From Bacteroidia bacterium (GTDB taxonomy: Bacteria > Bacteroidota > Bacteroidia > Bacteroidales > Azobacteroidaceae): a stretch of 24,727 bases of DNA. Each line of letters starts with the position of its first letter. The stretch's first letter is position 1. The notes below the pieces were generated by a model. It saw nothing but the letters and a program-made list of their open reading frames with translations, was not told where the DNA came from and did no database searches. Where the stretch lies: NCBI GenBank assembly GCA_025996865.1, contig BNTV01000075.1, forward strand, positions 1-24,727, read 5' to 3'. Positions 2,882 through 16,087 of the stretch are shown piece by piece. The translations under genes were made by a program, and so were the position numbers.

Positions 2882-3223
2882 ATGAACGAAGTATCAATTT
2901 GGATGACCTACGATTTAGGTGTGGGGGGCGATTTTAGGGGTTTATATTCTTGGTTTGATGACCATGAAGCAATTGAGTGTGGAAATAACATTGCATATTT
3001 TAAATATAAATATGCCGATTCAATCCATACAGACAAAGAATTTGCTAATTCTTTAAAGCAAGATTTGTCGAAAAATATTAAGTTTACTCCTTCAAACAGG
3101 ATTTATATTGTCAGAAAGTCCATAGAAAAGGGGAATACTATTGGCACTTTCATTGTGGGCAAACGAAAAGCAAATCCATGGGAAGGTTTCGGAACAAAAC
3201 CAGATAATACAATTGATGCATGA
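2882..3223 (+). CDS. hypothetical protein, first gene of PIN-like cassette
   Basis: A 113-residue protein I do not recognise as a characterised family. It opens with a strand-like hydrophobic segment (VSIWMTYDLGVGGDFRGLY), has an acidic and aromatic middle (SWFDDHEAIECG) and ends with a basic, Gly-rich tail (VGKRKANPWEGFGTKP). There is no signal peptide, membrane helix or obvious DNA-binding motif. Its stop overlaps the start of the next gene (ATGA at 3220-3223), so the two are translationally coupled. This layout, with a small upstream gene overlapping a PIN-like gene, resembles a toxin-antitoxin operon in which this would be the antitoxin or a partner, but that is inference from layout only. 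The cassette is visibly more AT-rich than the flanking DUF4301 gene, hinting at acquisition by transfer. Confidence 0.7.
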   Translation: MNEVSIWMTYDLGVGGDFRGLYSWFDDHEAIECGNNIAYFKYKYADSIHTDKEFANSLKQDLSKNIKFTPSNRIYIVRKSIEKGNTIGTFIVGKRKANPWEGFGTKPDNTIDA

Positions 3224-3636
3224 CCAACATTCTTATTGATAGTTGTTTTTGGTATAGTATGTTTGATAAATATGATGAACATTACAATAAGGTTCAGCAC
3301 ATGCAAGAATATTTGGAATTTGGAAACATAATACTACCCTATCCAATTATATACGAAACGTTGAATACTCGATTTGTTAAAAGAAAAGAGTGGTTAACAA
3401 CTTTTAACGACTTACTAAAAAGGGAATCCACAGTTCTTGTTTCAGATGAGCCTTATAAAGTGAAAGCGCTTTCCTCTGTTTTGTCAAATACGACAAGACC
3501 TCTAAGTTTAGTAGATATGACAATCAGATTAATGCTTGATGATATTGACCTTAACATTAATGCCCTTATAACATTCAATGTAGAAGATTTTATTGATATT
3601 TGCTCTAATAAAAGAATAGAGTTAATCTCTAAGTAA
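3220..3636 (+). CDS. PIN-like domain protein, possible ribonuclease toxin
   Basis: The 138 residues have the spacing of acidic residues expected for a PIN-domain nuclease: Asp in ILIDSCFWYSMF (residues 4-15), Glu in YPIIYETLN (about 41-49), Asp in LSLVDMTIRLML (about 95-106) and a late acidic residue in ITFNVEDF (about 117-124). PIN domains are Mg-dependent RNases found as toxins and in RNA processing. The usual second Asp in the first motif is replaced by Cys-Phe (DSCFW), and fold assignment from motifs alone is tentative. The start ATG is embedded in the stop of the upstream gene, implying coupled translation. No membrane segment is seen. It could also be an orphan RNA-processing or DNA-repair nuclease rather than a toxin. 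Confidence 0.65.
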   Translation: MTNILIDSCFWYSMFDKYDEHYNKVQHMQEYLEFGNIILPYPIIYETLNTRFVKRKEWLTTFNDLLKRESTVLVSDEPYKVKALSSVLSNTTRPLSLVDMTIRLMLDDIDLNINALITFNVEDFIDICSNKRIELISK

Positions 3637-4357: not shown

Positions 4358-4365
4358 CAAAGGTA
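4358..4365 (-). promoter_or_regulatory. -7 box of HAD gene, straddling a repeat edge
   Basis: On the minus strand TACCTTTG matches TAnnTTTG, 25 bp upstream of the chosen ATG. Seven of its eight bases lie inside the 113-bp repeat that starts at 4359, so the repeat edge may have created or replaced this promoter. Confidence 0.45.
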
Positions 4366-4471
4366 ACGATTATTTATCAGAAATCACCCCAATTATATTT
4401 GAACCAGAAGAAACCTTGCTAACTTTGCAAGAAAAAAGCGCGAAGGTGGCAGCGTAGTCGGATTTTAAATA
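4359..4471 (+). repeat. 113-bp dispersed repeat, copy 1
   Basis: Matches 10980-11092 with two mismatches over 113 bp. It carries a plus-strand promoter-like pair, TTTG at 4398-4401 and TAACTTTG at 4420-4427 (18-bp spacer), and a small hairpin CTTGC-N7-GCAAG near 4415-4431. Its right edge is the first base of the IS5-like element. No terminal inverted repeat is seen. It is probably the end of a mobile element carrying a transposase promoter, but the element is not identified. Confidence 0.8.
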
Positions 4472-5729
4472 GGGTCTGCTAAAAAAATGGTAAGTATAAG
4501 AATAATAAAGAATTATGTGTATATTTGTAGAATTAAAAGCAAAGAAAAATGGCAAATACCCGCAAAAAGGATGCAGTACCGCATTATGAAAGTCCGAATT
4601 AGTTGGTTTTGTCGGGCTTTGAGAGTCCATTCGATCAATCGCTGAATCCACAAAATCGCTGGGTAGTTTTGGCACACTTGATACCATGGGATGAAATATG
4701 TAATCTTTATCATCAGCAAGTAGGGATAAGTCGTACCGGTCGTCCGGGCTTAAATCCACGCATTGTTTTAGGCTCGTTAATCATCAAATATCTGTGCCAC
4801 CTGGACGACAGGGAAACGGTAGATCAAATATCGGAAAACATCTACATGCAGTATTTTCTTGGCTATCCGAGTTTCAGCAACGACCCGCCGTTTGATGCCT
4901 CCTTGTTTGTGGAGTTTCGGAAACGTTTGGGATTGGAGACCTAGAATGGCATCAATGAAAAGATAGTATCACTGAAAACGCAAATGGAATCCGGTCAAGA
5001 AAAAGGACGTGTCCTCTTTGATGCCACAGCTTGCCCGCAAGATGGAGATGTTTAAGAAACACATACACACGATAGAAGACAAGATAGTGAGTATTCATCA
5101 ACCGCATGTACGCCCCCTGGTGAGAGGCAAAGCGCAAGCCAAAGTGGAATTTGGCTCCAAGATACACCTGTCCGTGATAGACGGCATTAGTTTTTTGGAT
5201 GAATTGGGCTGGGATGCCTTCAATGAAGGCAGTCACATGGAAAACTACGTGGAACAATACAGAAAACGATTTGGTTTCTATCCGCGAGAGGTGTTGGCTG
5301 ACCGGATTTATTGTACACGAGACAATCGCAAGATGCTAAAAGGGAAGGGCATTGTCTTAAAAGGCAAGCCACTTGGAAGGCCATCGGCGGTGTCGATTCA
5401 CGTAAGTCCGGGGGAGCGTAATCCAATAGAAGGTAAATTTGGCCAGGCAAAAACCGGTTATGGTCTAAACCGCATCAAAGCCCGATTAAAAGATACAAGC
5501 GAATCATGGATTGCCGGCATCATCCTGGTGCTCAACCTCGTCAAGTTGGCGGAGGGGGCATTCCCGTGCCTTATTCAAAAGTGGGTGTTGAGTTTTTCAG
5601 CATACCTTGGTCTCAAAACACAAACCGCGCTCAGAGGTCTATATTTTTTTCTCGCAGAATTGCGGTGGAATATAGCCCGGCCCAAGCAAATTTGGGTCGC
5701 GATTGGGGCTTGAGTTTAACAGCAGACCC
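4472..5729 (+). mobile_element. IS5-like insertion sequence, internally deleted
   Basis: The ends are inverted repeats: GGGTCTGCT at 4472-4480 and AGCAGACCC at 5721-5729, with a partly matching continuation. TA is present on both outer sides (4470-4471 and 5730-5731), compatible with a 2-bp target duplication of the kind seen in some IS5-group elements. The 1258-bp interior holds a single transposase gene, broken by an early stop, an internal deletion and a frame change. The right side abuts a remnant IS110-type end (5730-5797). Confidence 0.85.
4549..5713 (+). pseudogene. IS5-like transposase, broken
   Basis: A DDE transposase of the IS5/DUF772 type in pieces. The start (MANTRKKDAVPHYESPN) is stopped by TAG at 4600-4602. 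The frame then continues through the N-terminal DUF772-like part (GRPGLNPRIVLGSLIIKYL; SFSNDPPFDASLFVEFRKRL) to a second stop at 4942-4944. A later piece reads VLFDATACPQD near 5010-5045. Past that point sequence is missing, and the rest continues in another frame from about 5034 to 5713 (GSKIHLSVIDGISFLDELGW; REVLADRIYC; SPGERNPIEGKFGQAKTGYG; IAGIILVLNLVKLA). The catalytic core is therefore interrupted and the product cannot be active. It is read from the strand facing the GLUG1 gene. Confidence 0.9.
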
Positions 5730-5797
5730 TAATTATCAATTCCGAAGGTTAGATATGAATGCTATTTTTGGATAGAAGAAATTTAGTTCAATAGAAA
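5730..5797 (+). repeat. IS110-type right end, copy 1 (68 bp)
   Basis: Nearly identical to 16021-16087. It differs at three positions near the left side plus one extra T in a T-run. It encodes the last codons of a transposase reading frame (IINSEG then TAG), followed by about 45 bp of non-coding end. In the second copy the same sequence follows IS110-like coding sequence, which is why I assign it to that family. It truncates the GLUG1 gene: the last two codons and the stop of that gene lie in this repeat. Confidence 0.75.
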
Positions 5798-6738
5798 TCA
5801 TTGACAATATCAATCTTACTTGCGTTTTTGAACGGTTTTGGGGCAGGTAGGTAATTGTCATTCCCGTTGTTCCATTGGTCATTGCCGACATCTTTTGTTA
5901 GATTTTTCATGACACTAAGACCTTCTGTAACCATTTTGGCGAGGCTGACAGGAATAACAGTAGTGTCAACAGTGTTTGTCTCCTCGAAATCACTTCGGGA
6001 AAAGCCGATACCTTTGGCGTTGTTACTGCTATAGTAGCAATTATTAGTTGTTCCTATGACACTCGTCCCAACTAAGCCACCGACATGATCTTTACCCTCA
6101 ACATTACCGGAGGCAAAGCAATTGTTTATATAGACAAAGTTAATCCCTACCAAGCCGCCGACACTTTTGTTACCCTCAACATTACTTGATGCATAACAAT
6201 TCCTAATAAATATATTATATCCAACCAAGCCCCCGACCATCTCATCTCCCTCAACATCGCCCTTAGTGTAACAATTGCTTATTGTACCTAAGTTGCTACC
6301 TGCTAAGCCCCCGACAAACTGATTGCCGTTTACACCTCCGGGGGCGATCTCTATTCCGATATTTTGAATAGTAGTACCTTTTCCGGAAACAATTCCGAAG
6401 AAGCCGATATTGTTTGTGGTCGGACGACTAATAAAGAGATTAGTAATCTTATGCCCATTGCCATCGAAAATACCGGAGAAAACACAACTATCCCCTCCTA
6501 TGGGTTGCCAATTTGTGCCGTCAGAGAGTTGAACATCCTGTGTAAGTTTTAAATATTTGCCGGAGTAGTTATTTGCTCTGCTGTTCACATCATTTGCAAG
6601 CAATTCTAAATCAGCCTGATTTGAAATCAGGAACGGATTGTCAACTGTACCGGCACCACCACTGAAAGCTGATTGCGCCAATGCTCTAATTGTGGTCAAA
6701 AGAGCGATAATAAAAGTAAAAAAACATCGTTTTCTCAT
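5788..6738 (-). CDS. secreted GLUG-repeat protein 1, C-terminally truncated
   Basis: A 316-residue exported protein. The signal peptide is MRKRCFFTFIIALLTTIRALAQ, with a cleavage-like ALAQ|S. It is followed by a domain shared with GLUG2 (SGGAGTVDNPFLISNQADLE; GKYLKLTQDVQLSDGTNWQP; FDGNGHKITNLFI). From about residue 140 there are four GLUG-type repeats of the form VGGLVGxN...NCYASGNVEG, known from adhesins and surface proteins and forming a beta-helix-like stack. After PAPKPFKNASKID the protein ends abruptly with VNDFY. The paralogue continues about 190 residues further, and the stop codon here lies inside an IS110-type end, so the original C-terminal domain has been cut off. The gene starts 9 bp after the leader-protein gene A and is surely co-transcribed with it. 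A surface or secreted partner role for protein A is inference. Confidence 0.88.
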   Translation of the reverse strand: MRKRCFFTFIIALLTTIRALAQSAFSGGAGTVDNPFLISNQADLELLANDVNSRANNYSGKYLKLTQDVQLSDGTNWQPIGGDSCVFSGIFDGNGHKITNLFISRPTTNNIGFFGIVSGKGTTIQNIGIEIAPGGVNGNQFVGGLAGSNLGTISNCYTKGDVEGDEMVGGLVGYNIFIRNCYASSNVEGNKSVGGLVGINFVYINNCFASGNVEGKDHVGGLVGTSVIGTTNNCYYSSNNAKGIGFSRSDFEETNTVDTTVIPVSLAKMVTEGLSVMKNLTKDVGNDQWNNGNDNYLPAPKPFKNASKIDIVNDFY

Positions 6739-6747
6739 AGTTTATAC

Positions 6748-7248
6748 TTAAAACGCCGCACGAGTTACATAAATTGTTTGACTTGCTGTAATAGTCGTAT
6801 AAAAATTACCCTGAGGATCAAAAATATTAAGGGAATTATCCGTATTTTTACCAAGTACAATAACGGCGTGATCATTACCAGTAGACTCATAATTACTTAT
6901 ATTATTGGTATTAAAATAGCCTATATATTGACTTAATATTGAATAATTACCAGAAATTACGCGGGAAGTGATATAATTTTGTATATCCGATATACTCATT
7001 CCAGCCCCCATTTCTTCTAAAACAGCATTTGTAACGAGAGAATTCGAATAAGCACTATTGAAATAATTCAATGCATAAGATTCCGCTGCTGATTCCGAGA
7101 AAGATGTACCTCCACTTTCTAACCATGCAACACACCGCCAAAAACAGTCATTATAATATTTACCCCAATAAGTATCCTGTTCGGATTCATCAATCATTGA
7201 CATTGTTTTTGCCAGTTCATCTAAACTCTTTTTTGTTAATTTTCTCAT
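6748..7248 (-). CDS. leader-bearing papain-like small protein A
   Basis: A 166-residue protein with an N-terminal segment resembling Bacteroidetes natural-product leader peptides (KKSLDELAKTMSMIDESEQ, then DTYWGK). In those leaders the end is typically a double glycine; here it is a degenerate WGK. The rest carries residues in the order of a papain/C39-like cysteine-peptidase fold: Cys35 in NDCFWRC, His127 in NDHAVIVLG and Asp144 in LNIFDPQG. It is paralogous to the protein at 13920-14435: the first 31 residues are identical and the rest increasingly different. There is no Sec signal peptide, so export would need a leader-recognising transporter, and none is visible here. It is driven by the promoter at 7310-7280 and followed after 9 bp by GLUG1. 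It could be a modified peptide precursor, a secreted peptidase-like effector, or both; I cannot decide. Confidence 0.8.
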   Translation of the reverse strand: MRKLTKKSLDELAKTMSMIDESEQDTYWGKYYNDCFWRCVAWLESGGTSFSESAAESYALNYFNSAYSNSLVTNAVLEEMGAGMSISDIQNYITSRVISGNYSILSQYIGYFNTNNISNYESTGNDHAVIVLGKNTDNSLNIFDPQGNFYTTITASQTIYVTRAAF

Positions 7249-7553
7249 TTTCTTATAAGTTTTAATGTGAATAATGCTACAAAGATAATGCCTTATAAAA
7301 GGCTTTGCAATAGGTAATTCCTCCCAATTTTATATCAACTTTATTTTCAAGATTCTACAAATACCATTCCATGATTTGTCGCAAAAATAACAGCCTCAAG
7401 CATAGAATGAACGCCCAATTTTCGGTACAGCATCGTTTCTGTATTCCAGATTGTCTTTTCAGATACACAAAGGATGTCGGATATTTCCTTATTACTTTTT
7501 CCTTGCTTGGCTAATTTCAGAATCTCTTTTTCTCTGTTTGTAAGGTTAATTAA
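7138..7553 (-). repeat. 416-bp duplicated block, copy A
   Basis: Aligns without gaps to 14325-14740 with three mismatches. It spans the C-terminal third of the LuxR-type regulator gene, the intergenic promoter and the first codons (leader) of the papain-like protein gene. Identity falls sharply on the downstream side, inside the leader-protein gene. On the other side copy B is cut by an IS1595 element. Confidence 0.95.
7280..7310 (-). promoter_or_regulatory. promoter with spacer palindrome for leader-protein/GLUG operon A
   Basis: Minus strand: -33-like TTG at 7310-7308, a 20-bp spacer, then TATCTTTG at 7287-7280, a close match to the Bacteroidetes TTTG/TAnnTTTG promoter. The spacer contains the perfect inverted repeat GCCTT-N4-AAGGC (7303-7290), placed where a regulator would contact RNA polymerase or block it. 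The same arrangement occurs in copy B. Confidence 0.65.
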
Positions 7554-8147
7554 TTTTTTTTCTTGCCACTGATGCTTCTCAAAGGAATAGGAACTATACT
7601 TTTTTTTGTCTTTACTGTAAATTCCCAAATTCCCGGATTTGTGTATCACAGAACCGGATAGATGACAAACGGCCATCCTCGCACAATCATTTATAAAGAT
7701 GAGAGAAATTTTGTGATAAACCATCAAAGGCAATCCATGATTAAGCAATCTGACATTAAACGCAAAGTAATCAATTTCCTGCGGGTTGCTGTCAGGTTCG
7801 GATAAATATTGTAAAACAGCGCGGTGAATACCAATGAACAATTGTAAATCCTCAGGATAGACAATCTTCGAGAAAAAATCGTAACCCATTTTCAGAGCAT
7901 CATCAAGAGAATATTCGGACAAAAAGAGCTCGTGGTCGGAAACGAAATGAAAACATTGTTTGTGGAAATCAATCACATAAACACTCCCGTTCATTATCTT
8001 TGAAAAAGACTTGAATATTTTCATTTGCAATTCGGATATTTCTTCATCTTCACTCGGTGGTGTAGGAATAGAAGAAATATTTTCAAAAAACAAATGAGGC
8101 ATCAATTCCTCTTTTGTGTGTAAATGCATTTCATGTAAATCGGGCAT
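7347..8147 (-). CDS. LuxR-type HTH transcriptional regulator A
   Basis: A 266-residue soluble regulator. The C-terminal part is a LuxR/GerE helix-turn-helix: LTNREKEILKLAKQGKSNKE (from about residue 202), followed by ISDILCVSEKTIWNTETML and YRKLGVHSMLEAVIFA. The N-terminal 190 residues look like a PAS-type sensor seen in Bacteroidetes regulators (YDFFSKIVYPEDLQLF near 90-105 has the typical 'hP-eDl' pattern); the ligand is unknown. There is no phospho-receiver domain. The gene lies directly upstream of operon A and its stop is 37 bp from that operon's -33 element, so it probably controls the leader protein and GLUG genes of both copies. A truncated duplicate of its C-terminus is at 14534-14740. 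It has its own -7 box at 8184-8177. Confidence 0.88.
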   Translation of the reverse strand: MPDLHEMHLHTKEELMPHLFFENISSIPTPPSEDEEISELQMKIFKSFSKIMNGSVYVIDFHKQCFHFVSDHELFLSEYSLDDALKMGYDFFSKIVYPEDLQLFIGIHRAVLQYLSEPDSNPQEIDYFAFNVRLLNHGLPLMVYHKISLIFINDCARMAVCHLSGSVIHKSGNLGIYSKDKKKYSSYSFEKHQWQEKKLINLTNREKEILKLAKQGKSNKEISDILCVSEKTIWNTETMLYRKLGVHSMLEAVIFATNHGMVFVES

Positions 8148-8176
8148 AATTTTTTTTATTTTACCTTAAATCCTTG

Positions 8177-8184
8177 CAAAGTTA
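8177..8184 (-). promoter_or_regulatory. -7 box for the LuxR-type regulator A gene
   Basis: On the minus strand TAACTTTG matches TAnnTTTG, 29 bp upstream of the ATG at 8147. A -33 TTTG at proper spacing is not evident. It separates the regulator from the upstream LanC-like/GT2 genes. Confidence 0.5.
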
Positions 8185-8258
8185 AACAAAAAATGGCATA
8201 TAATTTATTTCCGCTCAAAAAAGAATTAACCTAAATTTCTATATCTAAATACTTATAA

Positions 8259-9149
8259 TCAATGATTAATAAAATGATCAAACTTTTTAATTGAAAGGTT
8301 GGACAGGTTTGAAAATCGAGTGGTATCATATATTTTTTTGAACAAATTATAAAAAAATATTGCCATATCTTGTTTTTTTATCAATTCTTTGTGTTGCAAT
8401 TCTTTAAATCCTGTTAACATTGATTGTAATTCAGGATGAATCTCTTTGTACATATCTGCTAAGTATTCAAGGATTTCATTTATTATTTGATCGGTTGCCT
8501 GTTTCTGTCTTTCATCTTTTTGCTTGTTTACTTCCGAATCGGAGATACGATGATAATGCAAGAATTGACTATCAATATAGAATTGTCCCTCGTTTTTTGC
8601 TATTTCGACCCAAAGTTTAAAATCTTCTACAGGACAACAATTTTCGTAATGCAAATCATGTTCTATTAAGAAATTCTTCCGAATCATTGCTGTAAAATGA
8701 AAAATCCGATTTCCTCGCAAAAACGACAACAATGGATTGTCTATCCATCCACAGGGTATATTAGTTATACTTCCTGATACTATTGTGTCGCTCATTTGCT
8801 TCATCCTTGTACTACATACAGTAATCGTTGGTTCTGCTTCCATTGTGGCATATTGTATTTTTAATCGGTCAACATGCATGATATCATCGGCGTACATGAG
8901 AGATATATATTTCCCTGAAGATTTTTCTATCCCTACATTCAATGAATGAACGTAATCCATCGGTTCTTTAACGATACAAATACGTTTATCTTTAAAAGGC
9001 CCGGCAATGGATAATGCGTTATCGATCGATTCAAAATTTAGTATAATCAATTCAAAATCTACAAAAGATTGATTGAGTACACTCTTGATAGCATCATATA
9101 TGTACTTCTCATTATTGCCTAAAGGCATTATTATTGATATTAAACACAT
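8259..9149 (-). CDS. family 2 glycosyltransferase
   Basis: A 296-residue GT-A fold glycosyltransferase. The N-terminus has the nucleotide-sugar-binding start LISIIMPLGNNEKYIYDAI and SVLNQSFVDFELIILN. The DxD-like metal motif is in KYISLMYADDIMH (about residues 85-97). The catalytic-base region is ENCCPVEDFKLWVEIA (about 184-199, the usual E-D motif). After residue 225 it carries a helical tail unlike the minimal domain. There is no membrane segment. The donor sugar and acceptor cannot be predicted. It lies 39 bp downstream of the LanC-like gene with no promoter-like box between them, so they are probably one transcript. This suggests that it modifies the product of the same system (a glycosylated peptide or surface protein) rather than LPS, but that is inference from neighbourhood. 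Confidence 0.87.
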   Translation of the reverse strand: MCLISIIMPLGNNEKYIYDAIKSVLNQSFVDFELIILNFESIDNALSIAGPFKDKRICIVKEPMDYVHSLNVGIEKSSGKYISLMYADDIMHVDRLKIQYATMEAEPTITVCSTRMKQMSDTIVSGSITNIPCGWIDNPLLSFLRGNRIFHFTAMIRKNFLIEHDLHYENCCPVEDFKLWVEIAKNEGQFYIDSQFLHYHRISDSEVNKQKDERQKQATDQIINEILEYLADMYKEIHPELQSMLTGFKELQHKELIKKQDMAIFFYNLFKKIYDTTRFSNLSNLSIKKFDHFINH

Positions 9150-9188
9150 TGTATTACTCTTTATTAATTTAACATAAACGTTTTATTG

Positions 9189-10171
9189 TTATAATATTTC
9201 AGTATGTTTATTCGCATGAAATAAAAGAAGACGTCCCAATCCTGCTTCATATCCTATCGGAGAAAAATTTTTATCAATTAATTTCAGCAAATTTTGCATT
9301 GTCGCTTCTTTCTTAGTAATTTCTAAATCAGGGACATGCTCATAATCTATAATTTCGCTTTTTTCATTATCATAGATCAATTTTATTAAATCAATTCTTT
9401 CTTTTAATGAAAGAGCATCTGTATAGATGTTTTTGATCCCATTCCTTATATTATCTTCAACAATATCTTTGTATTTTTTTATCTTATACTTTTTTACAAG
9501 CCTGTTTAAGTACAAACCGACAATAAGGGAACTCGCCACCCTTCCTTTTCGATACAAATCAGAATAGTCGGCTAATAATGCGTTTGAAAAATATATATAA
9601 CCGGAATAGTCAATTAATTTAAGGTAACTTTCATAAATGTTCAACACTGCAGATTTATCATTAACATAGCGAATATCGGCAAAATCATGGAATTGTATGG
9701 TTAAAAATAGTTCCAATCCTTCAAATATTTTTTTATAATTTTTGGCAGTCGATCATCCTCTCTTTTTATATTGCCTACTTTAGAAAGAAAGTAAATTATC
9801 CGTAGTGAATTCACCAATCTCAAAGGTTCTTTTTCTATATTTTCAAGATTTTTGATCAGTGCTTCATATTGTTCTCCGAATATTTCATCGAAGTCAGCTT
9901 CCAACAATTTATTTTCGATCAGATAAAGCAACGTATATCCAATTCCAGCCAAGCCGTTTTCAAAATTATCGTCTTTATTTTTAATGATTAATACTTCCTG
10001 TAACAAATTAAAAGCTTTATCTTCTATCTTTTCGTCTCTTAAACACCTTGATACCTCAAAAAGAGATAATGACAATCCTGCTTTGCCATTATATAACCCT
10101 GTTGCTTTTGTTATGTCGGCATTTAATAAAATGTAATCAACAAACTCTCGAACAATTGTTTCTTGTATCAT
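9189..10171 (-). pseudogene. LanC-like (lanthionine synthetase C-like) protein, frameshifted at A7
   Basis: Two overlapping frames together give about 328 residues. The first (10171-9701) has the repeated Gly-rich helical hairpins of the LanC/alpha-toroid family: GLYNGKAGLSLSLFEVSR and DNFENGLAGIGYTLLYLIEN. The second (to 9189) ends with the matching C-terminal repeat PIGYEAGLGRLLLF. The frame changes in a run of seven A on the minus strand near 9730-9740; one additional A would restore IIKKIFEGLELFLTIQF across the junction. LanC enzymes are Zn-dependent cyclases of lanthipeptides; the Cys and His zinc ligands are not evident here, as in other Bacteroidetes LanC-like proteins I recall. The start ATG at 10171 gives a natural N-terminus. 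It could be a pseudogene, phase-variable by slippage, or a sequencing error. It is followed closely by the GT2 gene. Confidence 0.75.
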
Positions 10172-10201
10172 AATTATATATCTATTTAAAATTTTTCGTA
10201 A

Positions 10202-10911
10202 CTACTCTGGTCTATAAAATTTAGTACACAGCCAAAACTTGTAAGCTGTAAAAACATCCTGTCCGTTTTTGACGGTTGTATTGATAACAGACGAAGCATG
10301 AAACCTGTGTTTTTTACCGTTTACATGACAGCCTGTCTCATCGGCTCCTGCCACCTCGCTTTTTGCAATACGAGCCTGAATTTCCTTATAGATTACTTCC
10401 GATTTCTTGCTCATTCCGGCAAGAATATTGTCAATGCTCCCCTCCGAGAGGGGCAAATGAAAAATATCCCAAAAAAATTGACGTATACGCCGATACGGAA
10501 GAAACTGCCGGACGGACAGATGTTCAATATAACACGGTTGTACACCGGAGATTTCCACTTCCCGGCAACGACTTGCCGGTTCTCCCGAAACAGTTTCCGG
10601 TGACTGACTACATCCGTTGCAATAATTCGGGCTGTGCTCAATTATTTCGTCTACAGCTTCCTGCATAACAAGTGTGTGGTCGCTGGTATGTCCCGCTTGA
10701 CCTCCCTTTTTTTAGTTCTCTTACCACAAAGACTTATTGTATTACTGCGTCCGATGTCCAGAGAAGATGCGGTAGAACTTGCTTTACTGTTACGACCGTT
10801 TTTGAGCAAAGCAATTTCTTCCGTCAAACGCACCACTAACTCCGTCAGTTCTGCGATTTGCGCTTTCATTCGCTCGTATTCTTTACGTGGTATCGTAATC
10901 ATTTCTTCCAT
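10202..10911 (-). pseudogene. IS66-family transposase, deleted and frameshifted
   Basis: The N-terminal part from ATG 10911 carries the coiled-coil segment typical of IS66 TnpC (KEYERMKAQIAELTELVVRL, then TEEIALLKN). After about 90 codons the frame changes near 10655-10665. The second frame holds LSVRQFLPYRRIRQFFWDIF, SEGSIDNILAGMS and the catalytic-Asp motif VAGADETGCHVNGKKH. Two internal deletions are inferred by comparison with remembered IS66 proteins: one before LSVRQFLPYRR, and a large one after NGKKH that removes most of the DDE core and fuses it to a C-terminal-like segment (SVINTTVKNGQDVFTAYK). It cannot be functional. It sits between the GT4 remnant and the LanC-like gene, splitting what was probably one operon. 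Confidence 0.87.
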
Positions 10912-10915
10912 GACG

Positions 10916-10923
10916 CAAATGTA
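10916..10923 (-). promoter_or_regulatory. -7 box of the IS66 transposase
   Basis: On the minus strand TACATTTG fits TAnnTTTG but lies only 5 bp before the first ATG (10911). Translation may therefore begin at the next in-frame ATG, the fourth codon (MITIPRKEY). It could drive read-through transcription into the LanC-like and GT2 genes. Confidence 0.4.
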
Positions 10924-10979
10924 CATAAAAATTAGAATTTCCAAGCGCGTAAGATAAAAAATAAAAAGTTTTTCAGAGG

Positions 10980-11092
10980 AAAGGTAACGATTATTTATCA
11001 GAAATCACCCCAATTATATTTGAACAAGAAGAAACCTTGCTAACTTTGCAAGAAAAAAGCGCGAAGGTAGCAGCGTAGTCGGATTTTAAATA
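10980..11092 (+). repeat. 113-bp dispersed repeat, copy 2
   Basis: Matches 4359-4471 with two mismatches. Here it lies between the IS66 remnant and the truncated GT4 gene. It carries the same plus-strand TAACTTTG box at 11041-11048, which would transcribe antisense to GT4 and GLUG2. On the minus strand it supplies an artificial tail and stop codon (at 10991) to the GT4 reading frame. Confidence 0.8.
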
Positions 11093-11494
11093 GTGGATAT
11101 TCCCTGTAAGGTAACCTGACTTTTGTGGATATCGGCCCCAAACAATGGAGCAATAATATATTTTCACCTGTTCATAAGTCAAATCACTAAAGAAGATAAA
11201 AGGTGTATTGGCTTCCACAGGAAAAAACAATAAATCACCAAAGAAAATCAAATCAAAATTCAACGTATTGATACGTTCGGATAATAGTCTGTTTAGATTT
11301 TCAACATATCTGTCAGCAGGAATGAAAGTATCTGCAAAATTTCCCTTTACGAATAAATCAAGTTGCCCCAATAATTCTAAACCTATTATTTCTATATGAT
11401 GCTTTTCTTTCAACTTATTGTATATATAATACATTGTTCCTGACCAACTGTTTATATCTTTCGGATCCAATCGTGTGAGAAAAATGATATTCAT
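11093..11494 (-). pseudogene. GT4-type glycosyltransferase, N-terminal fragment
   Basis: About 134 residues of the N-terminal Rossmann half of a GT-B glycosyltransferase: NIIFLTRLDPKDINSWSGTM and YYIYNKLKEKHHIEIIGLEL are typical of Bacteroidetes family 4 enzymes. The reading frame then passes into the 113-bp repeat and stops at 10991, so the donor-binding C-terminal half is missing. It starts 14 bp after the end of GLUG2, so it was co-transcribed with the leader-protein B and GLUG2 genes. The rest of the gene is not found beyond the IS66 remnant, so it was deleted rather than just interrupted. Confidence 0.82.
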
Positions 11495-11508
11495 CGATAA
11501 GTTATTTT

Positions 11509-13908
11509 TTAATCATTGAACCAAAACACCTTTTCAAAATCCATCAAATACTTGTCGAATTTTTTCTTACTTTTGTTGGTCAGCATGAAATTGAGATGAA
11601 TCCGGTATCCTTCTTTAGATGTTATTACTACGGTTTTGCATGTCGTGTATTTATCCTCATAAACATTTTTCTGTAAATCTTTAGGATATATCTCCATTAC
11701 GTTGGCATTAAACATTTTTCGCGCTTGTTCATTTGGAGAATCGTAGTATTGGGCTCCATCTTTACCGAGAGGGACATATACAAAAATCACACAATCTTCA
11801 CCCTTAAACCTGATAATTGAATGTAGATTACCAAAAAGCACTTTAAAAAACGTAGCGCCATAAGACAGTTCATGACGATAGGATTGCGCTATTGTGGGTA
11901 AAGGGTCTTTTTCCGTTACTTCTGTTACGGATATAAGATCTTCGTTTTGAGAGGCAATTAAAAATGAAGGCATATTTATACTTACATTTATTTTCTTCAT
12001 TTCCTTTTCCAAAGCGGTTTCTCTTTTGCGTATATCTTTCACCTGTTTGGCGGGATCAACCTTACTTACTTTTTTGAACGGTTTAGGAGCTGGCAGGTAA
12101 CAGTCTTTTCCCTTGCTGTTTCCGTCATTCCATTGGTCTGCGCCAACACCCTTTGTCAGATTTTCCATAATGCCAAGCCCTTCCGTTGCCATTTTGATAA
12201 GAGGGATAGGAAGGAGGCTGTTGCCGGGGACGGGAGTATCGTCGAAGTCGCTTCGGGTATAACCTATACCTTTGCCATGAGCACTAACGCTGTTGTAATA
12301 ACTGTTGCTGATCGTACCGGTGACGTTACCTCCGACGATGCCCCCGACATACCATTTGCCCTCAAGACCACCGATATGCCACTGCCCTTCTACATCGCCC
12401 GTGGCATAGCAGTTGCTGATTGTGCCGCGGTTAAGCCCTACTAAACCACCGGCAGCATCTTTTTTGCTCTTTATATTGCCTGTAGCGCAACAATTGTTGA
12501 TTGTAAATTCATTAACCCCCACCAATCCGCCTACATCCAAATTGCCCTTAACATCGCCCGTGACGTAACAGTTGCTGATTGTGCCACTATTGCTCCCTGC
12601 TAATCCGCCGACAAAGTCAATACCGGTTACACCTCCGGAAGCAATCTCTATGCCGAGGTTTTGAATGGCAGAACTCTCGCCTGTAATTCCGAAGAATCCG
12701 ACATGATCTATATTCGGACGATCAATAAAGAGGTTGGTGATTTTGTGTCCGTCTCCATCGAAAGTTCCTGAAAAAGAGCGATAGTCGCCACTTCTCCCTA
12801 TCGGCCGCCAGTTTGTGCCGTCAGAGAGTTTAATATCCTGTGTGAGTTTTAAGTATTTGCCGGAGTAGTTGTTTGCGCCGCTGTTTATGTCGGTTGCAAG
12901 TTGTTCCAGATCAGTCTGATTGGATATCAGGAAGGGATTGTCGGCGGTGCCGGCGCTGCCGCTGAATGTTGACGGTGTTGCCGCCACTTCTGTATCTTGT
13001 CTGTTTTGTACTGTTTGGGCGACATCAATGGAGTCGCAATTGACTATTGTACTTGAGTTGAGTTTATACCCCACCAGACGGCCGACATTCTCTTTCCCTG
13101 TAACATTACCCGTAGCGTAACTATTACTGATTGTACTTTGGTTAACCCCCGCCAAGCCGCCGACAGTCTCTTTACCCTCAACGTTACCTGTGGCATAACA
13201 ATTGTTGACTGTGTTGCCGTTAGTCGCTATCAATCCGCCGACGGTTCCGATGCCTTCAACATTGCAAGTGGTATAGCAGTTGTTAATCTCACTTGATATA
13301 CTGCTTCTCCCAACCAAACCGCCGACTCCATTTCTGCCCTTTACATTTCCCGTAACGTAGCAGTTGCTGATCTTAGAGGAGTTAACCCCCACCAAGCCTC
13401 CAATATCCATATTGCCCTCTACATAACCCGTGACGTAGCAGTTGCTGATTGTACCGAAATTGCCCCCTGCCAAACCCCCGACACGCTGATTGCCGGTTAC
13501 ACCTCCGGAAGCGATCTCTACCCCAAAATTTTGAATGACAGCACGATGACCGGTAATTCCGAAGAGACCGATGTTGTACATAGTATTCGGACGATCAATA
13601 AAAAGGTTGGTAATCTTGTGCCCGTCGCCATCAAAAAGACCATCGAAAGGCGCTTTATCACCACCCCCTATCGGTTGCCAATTTGTACCGTCGGTGAGCT
13701 TAATGTCTCGAATAAGTTTTAGGTATTTGCCTGAGTAATTATTACTGCCGTTGGTTACATCATTTGCAAGCATCTCCAAATCAGCCTGATTTGATATAAG
13801 GAACGGAGCGTCAACCGTACCGGTGCCGCCGCTGAATTTTGATTGCGCCAATGCTCCAATTGTTGTCAAAAGGGCGATAATAAGAGTAAACAAGTATTGT
13901 TTATTCAT
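11509..13908 (-). CDS. secreted two-module GLUG-repeat protein 2
   Basis: A 799-residue exported protein. The signal peptide MNKQYLFTLIIALLTTIGAL ends in ALAQ|S. Module 1 (about residues 23-310) has an opening domain (SGGTGTVDAPFLISNQADLE; DGDGHKITNLFIDRP) and about six GLUG repeats (VGGLAGxN..ISNCYVTGNVEG). Module 2 (about 314-605) repeats the same plan with about five GLUG repeats and ends in PAPKPFKKVSKVD. GLUG1 corresponds to module 2. Residues about 606-799 form a separate domain of unknown family, starting with a charged helix (KDIRKRETALEKEMKKINVS) and containing a beta-rich region (GEDCVIFVYVPLGKDG; CKTVVITSKEGYRIHLNFML) that may resemble a lipid- or stress-binding fold; I cannot name it. 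It follows the leader-protein B gene by 11 bp and precedes GT4 by 14 bp. Surface adhesion or display is inferred from the family. Confidence 0.88.
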   Translation of the reverse strand: MNKQYLFTLIIALLTTIGALAQSKFSGGTGTVDAPFLISNQADLEMLANDVTNGSNNYSGKYLKLIRDIKLTDGTNWQPIGGGDKAPFDGLFDGDGHKITNLFIDRPNTMYNIGLFGITGHRAVIQNFGVEIASGGVTGNQRVGGLAGGNFGTISNCYVTGYVEGNMDIGGLVGVNSSKISNCYVTGNVKGRNGVGGLVGRSSISSEINNCYTTCNVEGIGTVGGLIATNGNTVNNCYATGNVEGKETVGGLAGVNQSTISNSYATGNVTGKENVGRLVGYKLNSSTIVNCDSIDVAQTVQNRQDTEVAATPSTFSGSAGTADNPFLISNQTDLEQLATDINSGANNYSGKYLKLTQDIKLSDGTNWRPIGRSGDYRSFSGTFDGDGHKITNLFIDRPNIDHVGFFGITGESSAIQNLGIEIASGGVTGIDFVGGLAGSNSGTISNCYVTGDVKGNLDVGGLVGVNEFTINNCCATGNIKSKKDAAGGLVGLNRGTISNCYATGDVEGQWHIGGLEGKWYVGGIVGGNVTGTISNSYYNSVSAHGKGIGYTRSDFDDTPVPGNSLLPIPLIKMATEGLGIMENLTKGVGADQWNDGNSKGKDCYLPAPKPFKKVSKVDPAKQVKDIRKRETALEKEMKKINVSINMPSFLIASQNEDLISVTEVTEKDPLPTIAQSYRHELSYGATFFKVLFGNLHSIIRFKGEDCVIFVYVPLGKDGAQYYDSPNEQARKMFNANVMEIYPKDLQKNVYEDKYTTCKTVVITSKEGYRIHLNFMLTNKSKKKFDKYLMDFEKVFWFND

Positions 13909-13919
13909 GGTATTTATAC

Positions 13920-14435
13920 TTAATACATTACGTAGCTTACATTACTTGCTTGACTTGCTGCAATGGTCATGTGAGTATTAAGTTGTGGATCAAAAATGTT
14001 AAGGGAATTATCCGCATTTGTACTAAGTACAATAACAGCGTGATTACTACCGGTATTACTATAATTACTTATATTATTGGTATTAAAAAAGCCTATATAT
14101 TGACCTTCAATACTACCGGAAGCTATAGAATAATTACCAGAAGTTACACGGGAAGTAAGATAATTTTGTATATCCGAAATACTCATTCCTGCTCCATTCG
14201 CTTCTAAAATACTGGCTGTTCCCGGATAATTTGAATAAACATTGCCAAAATAACTCAATGCGTACGATTCTGCTGCTGATTCCGAGAAAGATATTCCTCC
14301 ACTTTCCATATATGAAACACACCTCCAAAAACAGTCATTATCATATTTACCCCAATAAGTATCCTGTTCGGATTCATCAATCATTGACATTGTTTTTGCC
14401 AGTTCATCTAAACTCTTTTTTGTTAATTTTCTCAT
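13920..14435 (-). CDS. leader-bearing papain-like small protein B
   Basis: A 171-residue paralogue of protein A. The leader-like N-terminus is identical over the first 31 residues (LDELAKTMSMIDESEQDTYW then GKY). The candidate active residues are kept: Cys35 in NDCFWRC, His132 in NHAVIVLS and Asp149 in LNIFDPQL. The segments between and after them differ (for example SNYPGTASILEANGAG against the corresponding stretch in A), a five-residue insertion is present near residue 105, and the C-terminal 20 residues share little. Conserved leader with variable body is the pattern of natural-product precursors or diversified effectors. It is preceded by a promoter copy at 14497-14467 and followed after 11 bp by GLUG2. 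As for A, the function is not established. Confidence 0.8.
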   Translation of the reverse strand: MRKLTKKSLDELAKTMSMIDESEQDTYWGKYDNDCFWRCVSYMESGGISFSESAAESYALSYFGNVYSNYPGTASILEANGAGMSISDIQNYLTSRVTSGNYSIASGSIEGQYIGFFNTNNISNYSNTGSNHAVIVLSTNADNSLNIFDPQLNTHMTIAASQASNVSYVMY

Positions 14436-14466
14436 TTTCTTATAAATTTTAATGTGAATAATGCTA

Positions 14467-14497
14467 CAAAGATAATGCCTTATAAAAGGCTTTGCAA
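14467..14497 (-). promoter_or_regulatory. promoter with spacer palindrome for leader-protein/GLUG operon B
   Basis: Same architecture as copy A: TTG at 14497-14495, 20-bp spacer, TATCTTTG at 14474-14467, and the inverted repeat GCCTT-N4-AAGGC at 14490-14477 in the spacer. Not one base differs from copy A across this stretch. Confidence 0.65.
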
Positions 14498-14533
14498 TAG
14501 GTAATTCCTCCCAATTTTATATCAACTTTATTT

Positions 14534-14740
14534 TCAAGATTCTACAAATACCATTCCATGATTTGTCGCAAAAATAACAGCCTCAAGCATAGAATGAACG
14601 CCCAATTTTCGGTACAGCATCGTTTCTGTATTCCAGATTGTCTTTTCGGATACACAAAGGATGTCGGATATTTCCTTATTACTTTTTCCTTGCTTGGCTA
14701 ATTTCAGAATCTCTTTTTCTCTGTTTGTAAGGTTAATTAA
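14534..14740 (-). pseudogene. LuxR-type regulator B, C-terminal remnant
   Basis: The last 69 codons (from LINLTNREKEI to the stop) of a duplicate of regulator A, essentially the helix-turn-helix alone. No start codon or sensor domain remains, because the IS1595-like element occupies the upstream side. The surviving regulator A would have to serve both promoters. Confidence 0.9.
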
Positions 14741-15710
14741 ATGATTATCCGCATAACGTCCTATTGTAAATTTTCGATTTGAAATCAGTAGGGTAACAGA
14801 CGGCTAGCGCCACCAATCGGTCAAAAAGTTTTTCTCCGAAATACCGGCGATTAAATTTATCACAGAACTTATTGAGATAATATTGTAAATATTCTTTTTC
14901 CAGTTGGTGATGTGCATCCAAAAGCAAACGTTTGACGTTTCCAATGGCAATATGCACCCAGGGAAGTATCTTTGGCAAGTCTACAGGCGCCACAACCTGC
15001 GCATCATGCGACTTCACCTGTGTGATTCACCCGTTTTGATTTTTTTCCTTGCAGGGATTTTCTATAAACTCACTTTCGGTCATCGCCACCACTTTTGACT
15101 GTTTCTGACTGCCTGCGCCACGTTTCAACGGTTCGTCTTTCCGGTCTTCCGGTATGAGCGTGGTAATAAACGCATTATCAAGCTCTACCTGCCCTGAAAG
15201 TGAATATATGTCATCGCGTTTACCCATTACATCGCGCAATTTATTGGCGAGTTCCCAAATGGGTTGATAACGTTTATGACCCAATTGACGCTGCAATTCT
15301 GAAGATGAAAACGACTTTTTGGTAATCGTCAGAAAGTGCATAACAATATACCAATACAAAAATGGCAACTTTGTATGTTCCATTACCGTTCCTGAACGTA
15401 ATGACTGCCGTGTATGACAGTGTTTGCATTCGTAACTCAGTTTGTTTCCAAGCTGGTAATGTTGTTTGCCACCACATTTTGGGCAAACGACACCGGCTTG
15501 GTCTCTTTGGGCTTTAAAATGTAATATACAAGATTCTCGTCAGGAAAATGTTTGGTGAAATCAAAAATATTCATATTAGTTTAATGCTTAAAATTACAGC
15601 TCAAAGATAATGAATATCAGCGAATTATACAAATATTCTTAAAACTTTTTCAATAAATTCTTCGCCTCAATTGCCTCTTTTGGAGATTAGGACATTATGC
15701 GGATAATCAT
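14741..15710 (-). mobile_element. IS1595-family element, internally deleted
   Basis: Bounded by 21-bp inverted repeats: ATGATTATCCGCATAACGTC(C) from 14741 and the reverse complement at 15690-15710, with one mismatch. The transposase inside is on the minus strand and broken. No clear 8-bp target duplication is visible in the flanks, consistent with later deletion next to the element. Confidence 0.87.
14745..15574 (-). pseudogene. IS1595-family (ISXO2-like) transposase, broken
   Basis: The start MNIFDFTKHFPDE is at 15574. A one-base loss near 15534 shifts the frame. The next frame carries the zinc-ribbon CPKCGGKQHYQLGNKLSYEC (about 15485-15426), then ECKHCHTRQSLRSGTVMEH, ASELQRQLGHKRYQP-like sequence (SSSELQRQLGHKRYQPIWEL) and GQVELDNAFITT, where the family's catalytic acidic residue is expected. 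It stops at about 15027. A deletion follows, and the C-terminal part resumes in another frame (DLPKILPWVHIAIGNVKRLL; DKFNRRYFGEKLFDRLVALA). The family is recognised from its N-terminal zinc ribbon and the LGHKRYQPIWE motif. It is not functional. Confidence 0.88.
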
Positions 15711-15711
15711 T

Positions 15712-16087
15712 AAGATTTAAGAGACAAGCAGAAAGAAGTAGTTAAGTTACTTGAGAAACAAAAAACCAGGGATGTGAGAGATTTGGAATCCTACAAGTTG
15801 TCGGTTTGTCATCCCTACAGTGCAGGCGTCAGCGAGACACACTGATCAAGGAACGTTCTACCTGCGTACAGCGGATGCAGAAAGCGACCTCTCCAGTAAT
15901 CTACAATACCCTTGTTTACGGGCAAATATTCATCGAACTCGGTGAAGCTAAATACCTGAAAAAAACAGGAAGACTGGGAACGTAAAAAATTGCTTAAACT
16001 CGCCGAAAAATATAACTGTATAATTATCAATACCGAGGGTTAGATATGAATGCTATTTTGGATAGAAGAAATTTAGTTCAATAGAAA
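15712..16087 (+). mobile_element. IS110-family remnant with right end
   Basis: A decayed IS110-type transposase read in the plus direction. The recognisable part is RQRDTLIKERSTCVQRMQKA (about 15829-15888), the end of the DEDD domain in this family. It is joined directly to a C-terminal-like segment (VYGQIFIELGEAKYLKK), with the middle of the gene missing. A frame change at a run of seven A (about 15957-15964) is needed to continue (QEDWERKKLLKLAEKYNC) to the TAG at 16041-16043. The left part is lost at the IS1595 element. The last 67 bp (16021-16087) are repeated at 5730-5797. Confidence 0.7.
16021..16087 (+). repeat. IS110-type right end, copy 2 (67 bp)
   Basis: Second copy of the sequence at 5730-5797, here in its natural context at the end of the IS110-like coding remnant. 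The common right edge AATAGAAA is followed by unrelated sequence in the two copies, defining the element boundary at 5797 and 16087. Confidence 0.78.

Follow-up and report, generated by a model that had tools for sequence, protein, structure and literature searches.

At positions 5788..14740 of contig BNTV01000075.1, from a Bacteroidia bacterium of the Azobacteroidaceae (assembly GCA_025996865.1), there is an island in which two small proteins, each with a double-glycine (GG)-type leader and a papain-like core, are encoded ahead of genes for secreted proteins. The window here means the whole 24,727-nucleotide stretch that was analysed. We regard it as probable, at roughly 0.65, that this is a cassette in decay, belonging to a polymorphic effector/immunity system of Bacteroidales with microcin-type (C39) type I export. 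Several features of the sequences argue for this, namely the leader/core architecture, the papain-like family, a leader that is more conserved than the core, the adjacency of partner genes, the co-occurrence of an exporter with the leader, and an exporter in the window's own genome, together with a predicted papain-like fold; cleavage and export by that C39 transporter, toxicity, the target, immunity and glycosylation are what we infer from them. A sequence-only reading of the same DNA had described a duplicated set of LuxR-type regulator, leader protein and GLUG-repeat protein around LanC-like and glycosyltransferase (GT) genes, and had proposed a modified, exported peptide or a peptidase-like effector displayed with a surface repeat protein. 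Its observations are partly confirmed and its interpretation is partly supported.

The evidence from the window includes a list of open reading frames (ORFs), a Pfam scan of nine island proteins and a repeat analysis. The two leader proteins and their partners are encoded as follows.

13920..14435, minus strand: leader and papain-like protein, copy A (P0001); leader codons 1-29 at 14349-14435, core down to 13923.
6748..7248, minus strand: leader and papain-like protein, copy B (P0002); leader at 7162-7248.
11509..13908, minus strand: candidate immunity or partner protein of copy A; signal peptide, GLUG repeats (Pfam Glug) and a C-terminal domain, F9 (12045-11512).
5788..6738, minus strand: truncated partner of copy B; signal peptide and GLUG repeats only, without the F9 domain.

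The two proteins, 166 and 171 amino acids (aa) long, consist of leader and core only; their identity is 77%, over 95% of the query. No carrier domain of the type VI secretion system (T6SS) or of contact-dependent growth inhibition (CDI) appears among the Pfam matches obtained for nine scanned island proteins. The 200 nt upstream of the two genes differ at one position and the leaders at 0 of 87 nt, so that the duplication is not due to chance; the cores differ at 46 of 228 nt over codons 30-105. The ratio of nonsynonymous to synonymous substitution rates (dN/dS) between the copies is ~0.42 over 166 codons. In the 47-row family alignment A4, C35 is kept in 46 rows and C39 and H132 in all 47, while position 149 has D in 38 rows and C in the other 9, so that the papain-like Cys/His/Asp residues seen in the sequence-only reading are indeed conserved. 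The subgroup with Cys149 in place of the third catalytic Asp always keeps Cys39, and one of its rows, P0010, is also without Cys35; judged from the alignment, these members possibly have an altered chemistry or are inactive.

The AlphaFold model is papain-like (mean pLDDT 85; 106 of 171 residues at or above 90). When the family profile was compared with the sequences in the PDB, the sole matches, weak and over the His/Asp part, were papain-like interbacterial toxins of the CDI/T6SS type, and the predicted fold has the Cys-His-Asp/Asn arrangement of the Cpe1 and CdiA-CT toxins. The likeness to Cpe1/Cpi1 and CdiA-CT extends to the downstream partner gene. Unlike them, however, the window proteins have only a leader in place of the T6SS or CDI carriers with which the described toxins are associated (PMC12136450, seen in part), and the partner carries a signal peptide; Bacteroidota is not among the phyla named in the part of that paper that was seen. 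Structural matches include staphopain, also in complex with its inhibitor staphostatin.

A profile built from the leader alignment A5 matched 6 of 393 sampled Bacteroidales genomes at E <= 1e-5 (12 of 393 at E <= 0.01). By family, matches were found in 6/151 genomes of the G300 family, 2/12 of the G378 family and 1/5 of the G314 family; in a sample of the phylum they were found in 2 of 392 genomes, both of them Bacteroidales. One genome, Proteiniphilum sp. X52 (G629), has a large repertoire, with nine leader matches (E <= 0.001) over seven contigs.

The same type of leader precedes papain-like, Tox-MPTase2, YkuD, Tae3-like and C39-like cores. The zinc peptidase domain Tox-MPTase2 (cut-off 25) is recognised in the cargos of loci L006 (25.7 bits) and L144 (28.7), and L028, with 22.2, lies below the cut-off. 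The cargo of L100, a locus in the window's own genome, is a YkuD L,D-transpeptidase (28.9 bits; cut-off 23.4). The core of L023 is CHAP-like, with a CHAP score of 23.8, below the cut-off of 26, and matches PDB 4hz9 at 4.2e-17; according to PMC11796386, of which passages were available, 4hz9 is the T6SS amidase Tae3. A C39-like peptidase core in L135 matches 9jdd at 3.7e-15, and L105 reaches 23.1 for Peptidase_C39_2, below the cut-off of 24. Some cargos have no recognised domain, among them those of L026, L066, L102, L134, L138 and L141. In the 31 leader ORFs of at least 100 aa (5 of 36, being shorter, are left out), the cores are ~80-352 aa long, and HExxH occurs in 10 of these 31 compared with 3 of 235 other ORFs of 100-400 aa (p 2.4e-8; the Fisher tests here and below assume independent loci, and related loci are not independent). 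A motif around W-x-GG-Y-V-x-G follows the leader in 10 of the 36 leader ORFs, before different types of enzyme, and is found in 3 of 369 other ORFs, all three within regions that also hold leader ORFs. Between L023 and L135, significant alignment is confined to the leader and this stretch. The papain-like family of the window is without the motif.

In comparisons within genomes, reported for pairs with a leader identity of at least 80%, the leader is better conserved than the core. G314 has three cassettes with an identical 300-nt upstream region, leaders 84-100% identical and cores with an end-to-end identity of 64% or only 6-8%, the third ORF being short at 110 aa. In G320 the leaders are 96-99% identical and one core pair is 49%, and in G378 the figures are 91% and 44%; the upstream region is constant in neither. 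A pair in G629 has a leader identity of 80%, an upstream identity of 45% over the aligned part and a core identity of 25%. In other words, both the upstream region and the leader are constant in G000, the window's own genome, and in G314, and the leader alone in G320 and G378. Judged by these alignments, the family combines a constant N-terminus with exchangeable C-terminal domains, as do the polymorphic toxin systems described by Zhang et al. in 2012 (PMC3482391, seen in part), with which it also shares differing C-terminal domains of toxin type, adjacent candidate immunity genes, Tox-MPTase2, and a papain-like C-H-D pattern like that of Tox-PL1. The difference lies in the delivery part, for which the present family has a GG leader directed to a type I exporter of the C39 kind. 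In the passages of PMC3482391 available to us, the terms "leader peptide", "GG motif", "LanC" and "double-glycine" do not occur; "double-glycine leader" occurs once in its full text.

These observations bear on the possibility that the proteins are exported peptidases, each with an inhibitor or substrate, that serve nutrition, surface processing or host interaction rather than the killing of bacteria. General peptidases are among the enzyme types, staphopain and its complex with staphostatin are among the structural matches, and the GLUG repeats of the window partner could suit a surface role. We nevertheless consider this explanation unlikely, because the cargos include cell-wall-type enzymes (a Tae3-like amidase and an L,D-transpeptidase) and Tox-MPTase2, the relatives in the PDB by sequence are interbacterial toxins, and differing cores behind a conserved leader fit effector repertoires better than digestion. 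The peptidase-like effector of the sequence-only reading is supported: the model is papain-like, the PDB profile matches are to toxins only, and the leader is common to other enzyme cargos, several of them beside C39 exporters.

Genes for candidate partners recur beside the leader ORFs. Among the 31 leader ORFs of at least 100 aa, three were dropped from the count (one without a further neighbour and two with the next gene on the opposite strand), and in 25 of the 28 testable ones the next gene on the same strand is signal-peptide-like, by our own heuristic rather than SignalP, versus 79 of 340 in the background. The negatives are L066, L101 (followed by a LanC-like gene) and L141. In L004 and L022, the secreted protein encoded right after the papain-like cargo is homologous to the F9 domain of the window and has no GLUG part; 29 F9 proteins are listed, the query included, and the F9 model has a pLDDT of 88. 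The window F9 is without ~40 internal residues that are present in the family. The GLUG part of 5788-6738 is 61-64% identical to that of 11509-13908, and no other ORF with GLUG repeats was found in the 32 regions examined. The idea that the small protein is displayed with a surface repeat protein is therefore unproven, the recurrent partner being the F9 domain and not the GLUG part. In one F9 homologue, P0070, a leader-like stretch precedes a hydrophobic, signal-like region, and its sequence looks as if leader and partner genes had recombined. The secreted proteins that follow two other leader cargos carry an erythromycin-esterase-like domain (L102:10527-12254; PF05139, 102.7 bits) and leucine-rich repeats (L136:2425-3066), respectively.

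The remaining features of the island, and the element that borders it, are the following.

7347..8147, minus strand: intact LuxR/GerE-type regulator (PF00196, 58.9 bits).
14436..14739, minus strand: 3' fragment of the LuxR gene with the region upstream of copy A, duplicated from 7249-7552 (304 nt, 99.3% identity).
8259..9149, minus strand: GT2 glycosyltransferase (PF00535, 66.3 bits), which clusters with GT2 genes of relatives.
9189..10171, minus strand: LanC-like gene, frameshifted into two ORFs (9701-10171 and 9189-9716); PF05147 on the first ORF, no zinc-ligand motif.
10991..11494, minus strand: N-terminal fragment of a GT4 glycosyltransferase, truncated by the end of an insertion sequence (IS); clusters with the 370-aa GT4 of L003.
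10202..10944, minus strand: remnant of an IS66-type transposase (PF03050, 30.4 bits on 10202-10666; 10651-10944 unmatched).
14740..15711, minus strand: IS1595-like element with 24-nt inverted repeats (PF12762 weak, 19.2 bits, below the cut-off of 27).

In relatives, fuller clusters are found in L003, L020/L021, L023 and L029. The papain-like gene of L003 (Bacteroidaceae bacterium HV4-6-C5C) stands with a GT2 gene, an intact LanC-like gene, a GT4 gene and genes for a C39 ATP-binding cassette transporter (C39-ABC), HlyD and TolC, and that of L004 (Marinifilaceae BB29) is accompanied by C39-ABC and HlyD genes, a pair of LanC-like genes and a gene for a secreted partner. Neighbours were counted within 10 kb of 25 leader loci (E <= 1e-5), several of which are interrupted by the end of a contig; for L005, the truncated leader gene was placed by hand. 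LanC-like genes were found at 17 loci, GT4 at 14, GT2 at 13, C39-ABC at 11, HlyD at 10 and TolC at 7. At least one of LanC-like, GT4 and C39-ABC is present at 20 of the 25, and none at L005, L027, L028, L135 and L143; in seven weaker or otherwise found loci, the numbers are 2, 2 and 3. LanC-like genes as such are uncommon, being found in 30 of 393 Bacteroidales genomes (E <= 1e-8), so that their co-occurrence with the leader does not seem to be due to chance. A LuxR gene was seen beyond the window at one locus in the 32 regions, L141, with 31% identity. Thus, LuxR and GLUG are not core components, and of the earlier gene set, the LanC-like and GT genes are borne out, whereas GLUG does not belong to it, LuxR is doubtful, and the exporter has to be added.

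No C39 transporter is present within the window, as had been noted before, but one exists elsewhere in the same genome: contig C89 encodes a C39-ABC transporter 77% identical to that of L003, with HlyD and TolC genes, and this exporter could serve the window proteins in trans. On this contig, in L100 (G000:C89:9001-21266), the cargo (9532-10176) lies between two paralogous secreted proteins and next to the exporter genes. With regard to export, the family resembles the class II microcins of the MccV type, which use a C39 peptidase-containing ABC transporter, a membrane fusion protein (MFP) and TolC (PMC10233263, seen in part): there is an N-terminal leader of the double-glycine type, the genes for C39-ABC, the MFP HlyD and the outer-membrane factor TolC lie beside the cargo in several relatives (for the window, only elsewhere in the genome), and a candidate immunity gene is adjacent. 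On the other hand, the cargo is enzyme-sized instead of a small peptide, and there are additional LanC-like and GT genes. In the Cdz system of Caulobacter, too, a bacteriocin is secreted by the type I route and there is an immunity protein (PMC5380434, seen in part), but the Cdz toxins are glycine-zipper proteins and not enzymes.

In the literature, as far as it was seen, and in automatic annotation, such loci are treated as pathways for ribosomally synthesized and post-translationally modified peptides (RiPPs): the LanC-like and GT proteins would modify the core of the small protein, itself a long precursor, and the secreted partner would be a signalling protein. The GG-type leader suits this, the cargo of L022 scores 27.2 for TIGR04149 ("rSAM-modified RiPP"), above the cut-off of 25, and the sources name P0042 a TIGR04149 RiPP and P0034 a natural product precursor. 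L026 is just below that cut-off with 24.3, the other six cargos are unmatched, and the window leader proteins match nothing in NCBIfam, TIGR04149 included. Several cores, however, match catalytic domains with their active-site motifs kept. In alignment A2 of ten LanC-like relatives, no column has Cys or His in at least 5 of the 10; a lack of conserved Cys/His is also reported for a published set (PMC10352776, seen in part). The zinc-binding Cys/Cys-His of a class I lanthipeptide LanC is not found, and matches to synthetases in the PDB are confined to N-terminal stretches. The TIGR04148 radical-SAM (S-adenosylmethionine) maturase was not found, at E <= 1e-20, in 11 of 13 leader-bearing genomes, including the window's own (88% complete), and in the other two it lies on contigs other than the leader contigs. 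LanB was not recognised among the window ORFs; the genome was not searched for it. The RiPP explanation is accordingly quite improbable in our view, and the suggestion of a modified peptide is not supported, given the size of the cores and the searches in which these enzymes and residues were not found.

It should be mentioned that the family resembles the "GG-Bacteroidales" RiPP systems (TIGR04148/TIGR04149/TIGR04157) and BGC3-5 of PMC10352776, with which, as far as that paper was seen, it shares a related leader, LanC-like proteins without zinc ligands and, in some cases, a C39 transporter. The GT4 proteins also show a relationship to TIGR04157, for which those of L023 and L029 score 204 bits, short of the cut-off of 400. 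Unlike in those systems, the maturase was not found in most of the leader-bearing genomes and several cargos are enzyme domains. In G067, one of the two genomes that have it, a maturase above the cut-off lies in the LanC-like locus L068, for which no leader match is listed; this maturase locus, standing apart from the leader family, indicates that both kinds of system can exist in one genome. The LanC-like loci L067, L069 and L071 contain radical-SAM-like sequences, recognised by eye, and no leader match of this family is listed there.

Taking the effector/immunity reading as a working model, each effector would be made with a GG-type leader of ~30 residues, which a C39 peptidase-containing ABC transporter, with HlyD and TolC, would recognise and cut after the G-x site. 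The enzyme cargo would be exported across both membranes, for the window probably by the C89 operon, and would outside attack the envelope of a neighbouring cell; here, the cargo may be a papain-like cysteine peptidase or amidase that acts on peptidoglycan peptides or on a periplasmic protein. The Sec-exported protein encoded just downstream (here F9) would protect the producer in the periplasm. Repertoires would shift with the leader, and in two genomes also the upstream region, kept constant and the core and partner exchanged or diverging. Least certain is the part of the LanC-like and GT proteins, which may be accessory, perhaps glycosylating or presenting the cargo.

The state of the island itself has to be weighed against this model. 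The LuxR fragment (14436-14739) stops where the IS1595-like element starts (14740), and beyond this element there is no significant LuxR similarity. The intact LanC-like gene of L003 aligns to the window in two frames (10171-9728 and 9734-9192), the match in 9701-10171 scoring 27.9 bits (PF05147; cut-off 23.2). The GT4 fragment ends in an IS end, in which 10980-11093 is 98% identical to 4359-4472, and the IS66 remnant sits beside it, between the LanC-like gene and the fragment. The first GLUG ORF (5788-6738) terminates in a ~68-bp repeat at 5730-5797 that recurs at 16021-16087. This near-identical direct repeat flanks the island on both sides, and the copy on the left, which lies beside an IS, cuts the first GLUG gene short. 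The "duplicated cassette" is thus partly wreckage: of the set that had been read as present twice, there are two leader proteins and two GLUG proteins, but of the second LuxR there is only a 304-nt fragment, and the C-terminal domain is missing from the first GLUG protein. Likewise, the LanC-like gene and the two GT genes between the copies were all matched, one GT being truncated as had been said, but the LanC-like gene is frameshifted.

With this damage and IS remnants of three kinds, the island might simply be dead, its genes non-functional remnants and the papain-like ORFs mere recent duplicates, an explanation that overlaps with a "decaying" cassette. We hold it to be somewhat unlikely, because both papain-like ORFs keep their catalytic residues at the dN/dS given above, relatives have more complete clusters, and an exporter operon is retained in the window's own genome. 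It does weigh against the effector/immunity reading that the partner domains of the window are damaged while the enzymes are intact, and the window copy may therefore be silent or protected otherwise.

In a broader sense, we give about even odds to the idea that Bacteroidales deploy polymorphic enzymatic toxins free of carriers, with a short bacteriocin-type leader, a C39 type I exporter, enzymes that cut peptidoglycan or protein, zinc-less LanC-like and GT proteins that modify or present the cargo, and leader-anchored recombination that swaps toxin/immunity modules. If this is true, many "long-core RiPP precursors" annotated in Bacteroidales would be antibacterial enzymes. Genes that are named RiPP or natural-product precursors would then encode effector enzymes, with some of the "signalling" genes nearby serving for immunity. 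Besides T6SS, CDI and others, polymorphic enzyme toxins would have type I (C39) secretion as a further route, and the recurrent zinc-less LanC-like proteins and glycosyltransferases would gain a concrete, testable role. The elements are each known, that is, the GG leader with C39 type I secretion, polymorphic enzyme toxins and secreted immunity; in the parts of the open-access literature that were searched, we found neither their combination nor papain-like, Tae3-like, YkuD and Tox-MPTase2 domains placed behind a single type of leader in Bacteroidales.

Outside the island, two genes at 2882-3636 of the window overlap by 4 nt, and the second protein, without a Pfam match, looks by eye like a PIN-type nuclease. 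The window's genome (5.4 Mb in 421 contigs) is the largest among the 45 searched in its family. The same family includes genomes of 1.0-1.2 Mb at 99% completeness, which are reminiscent of endosymbionts of the Azobacteroides type.

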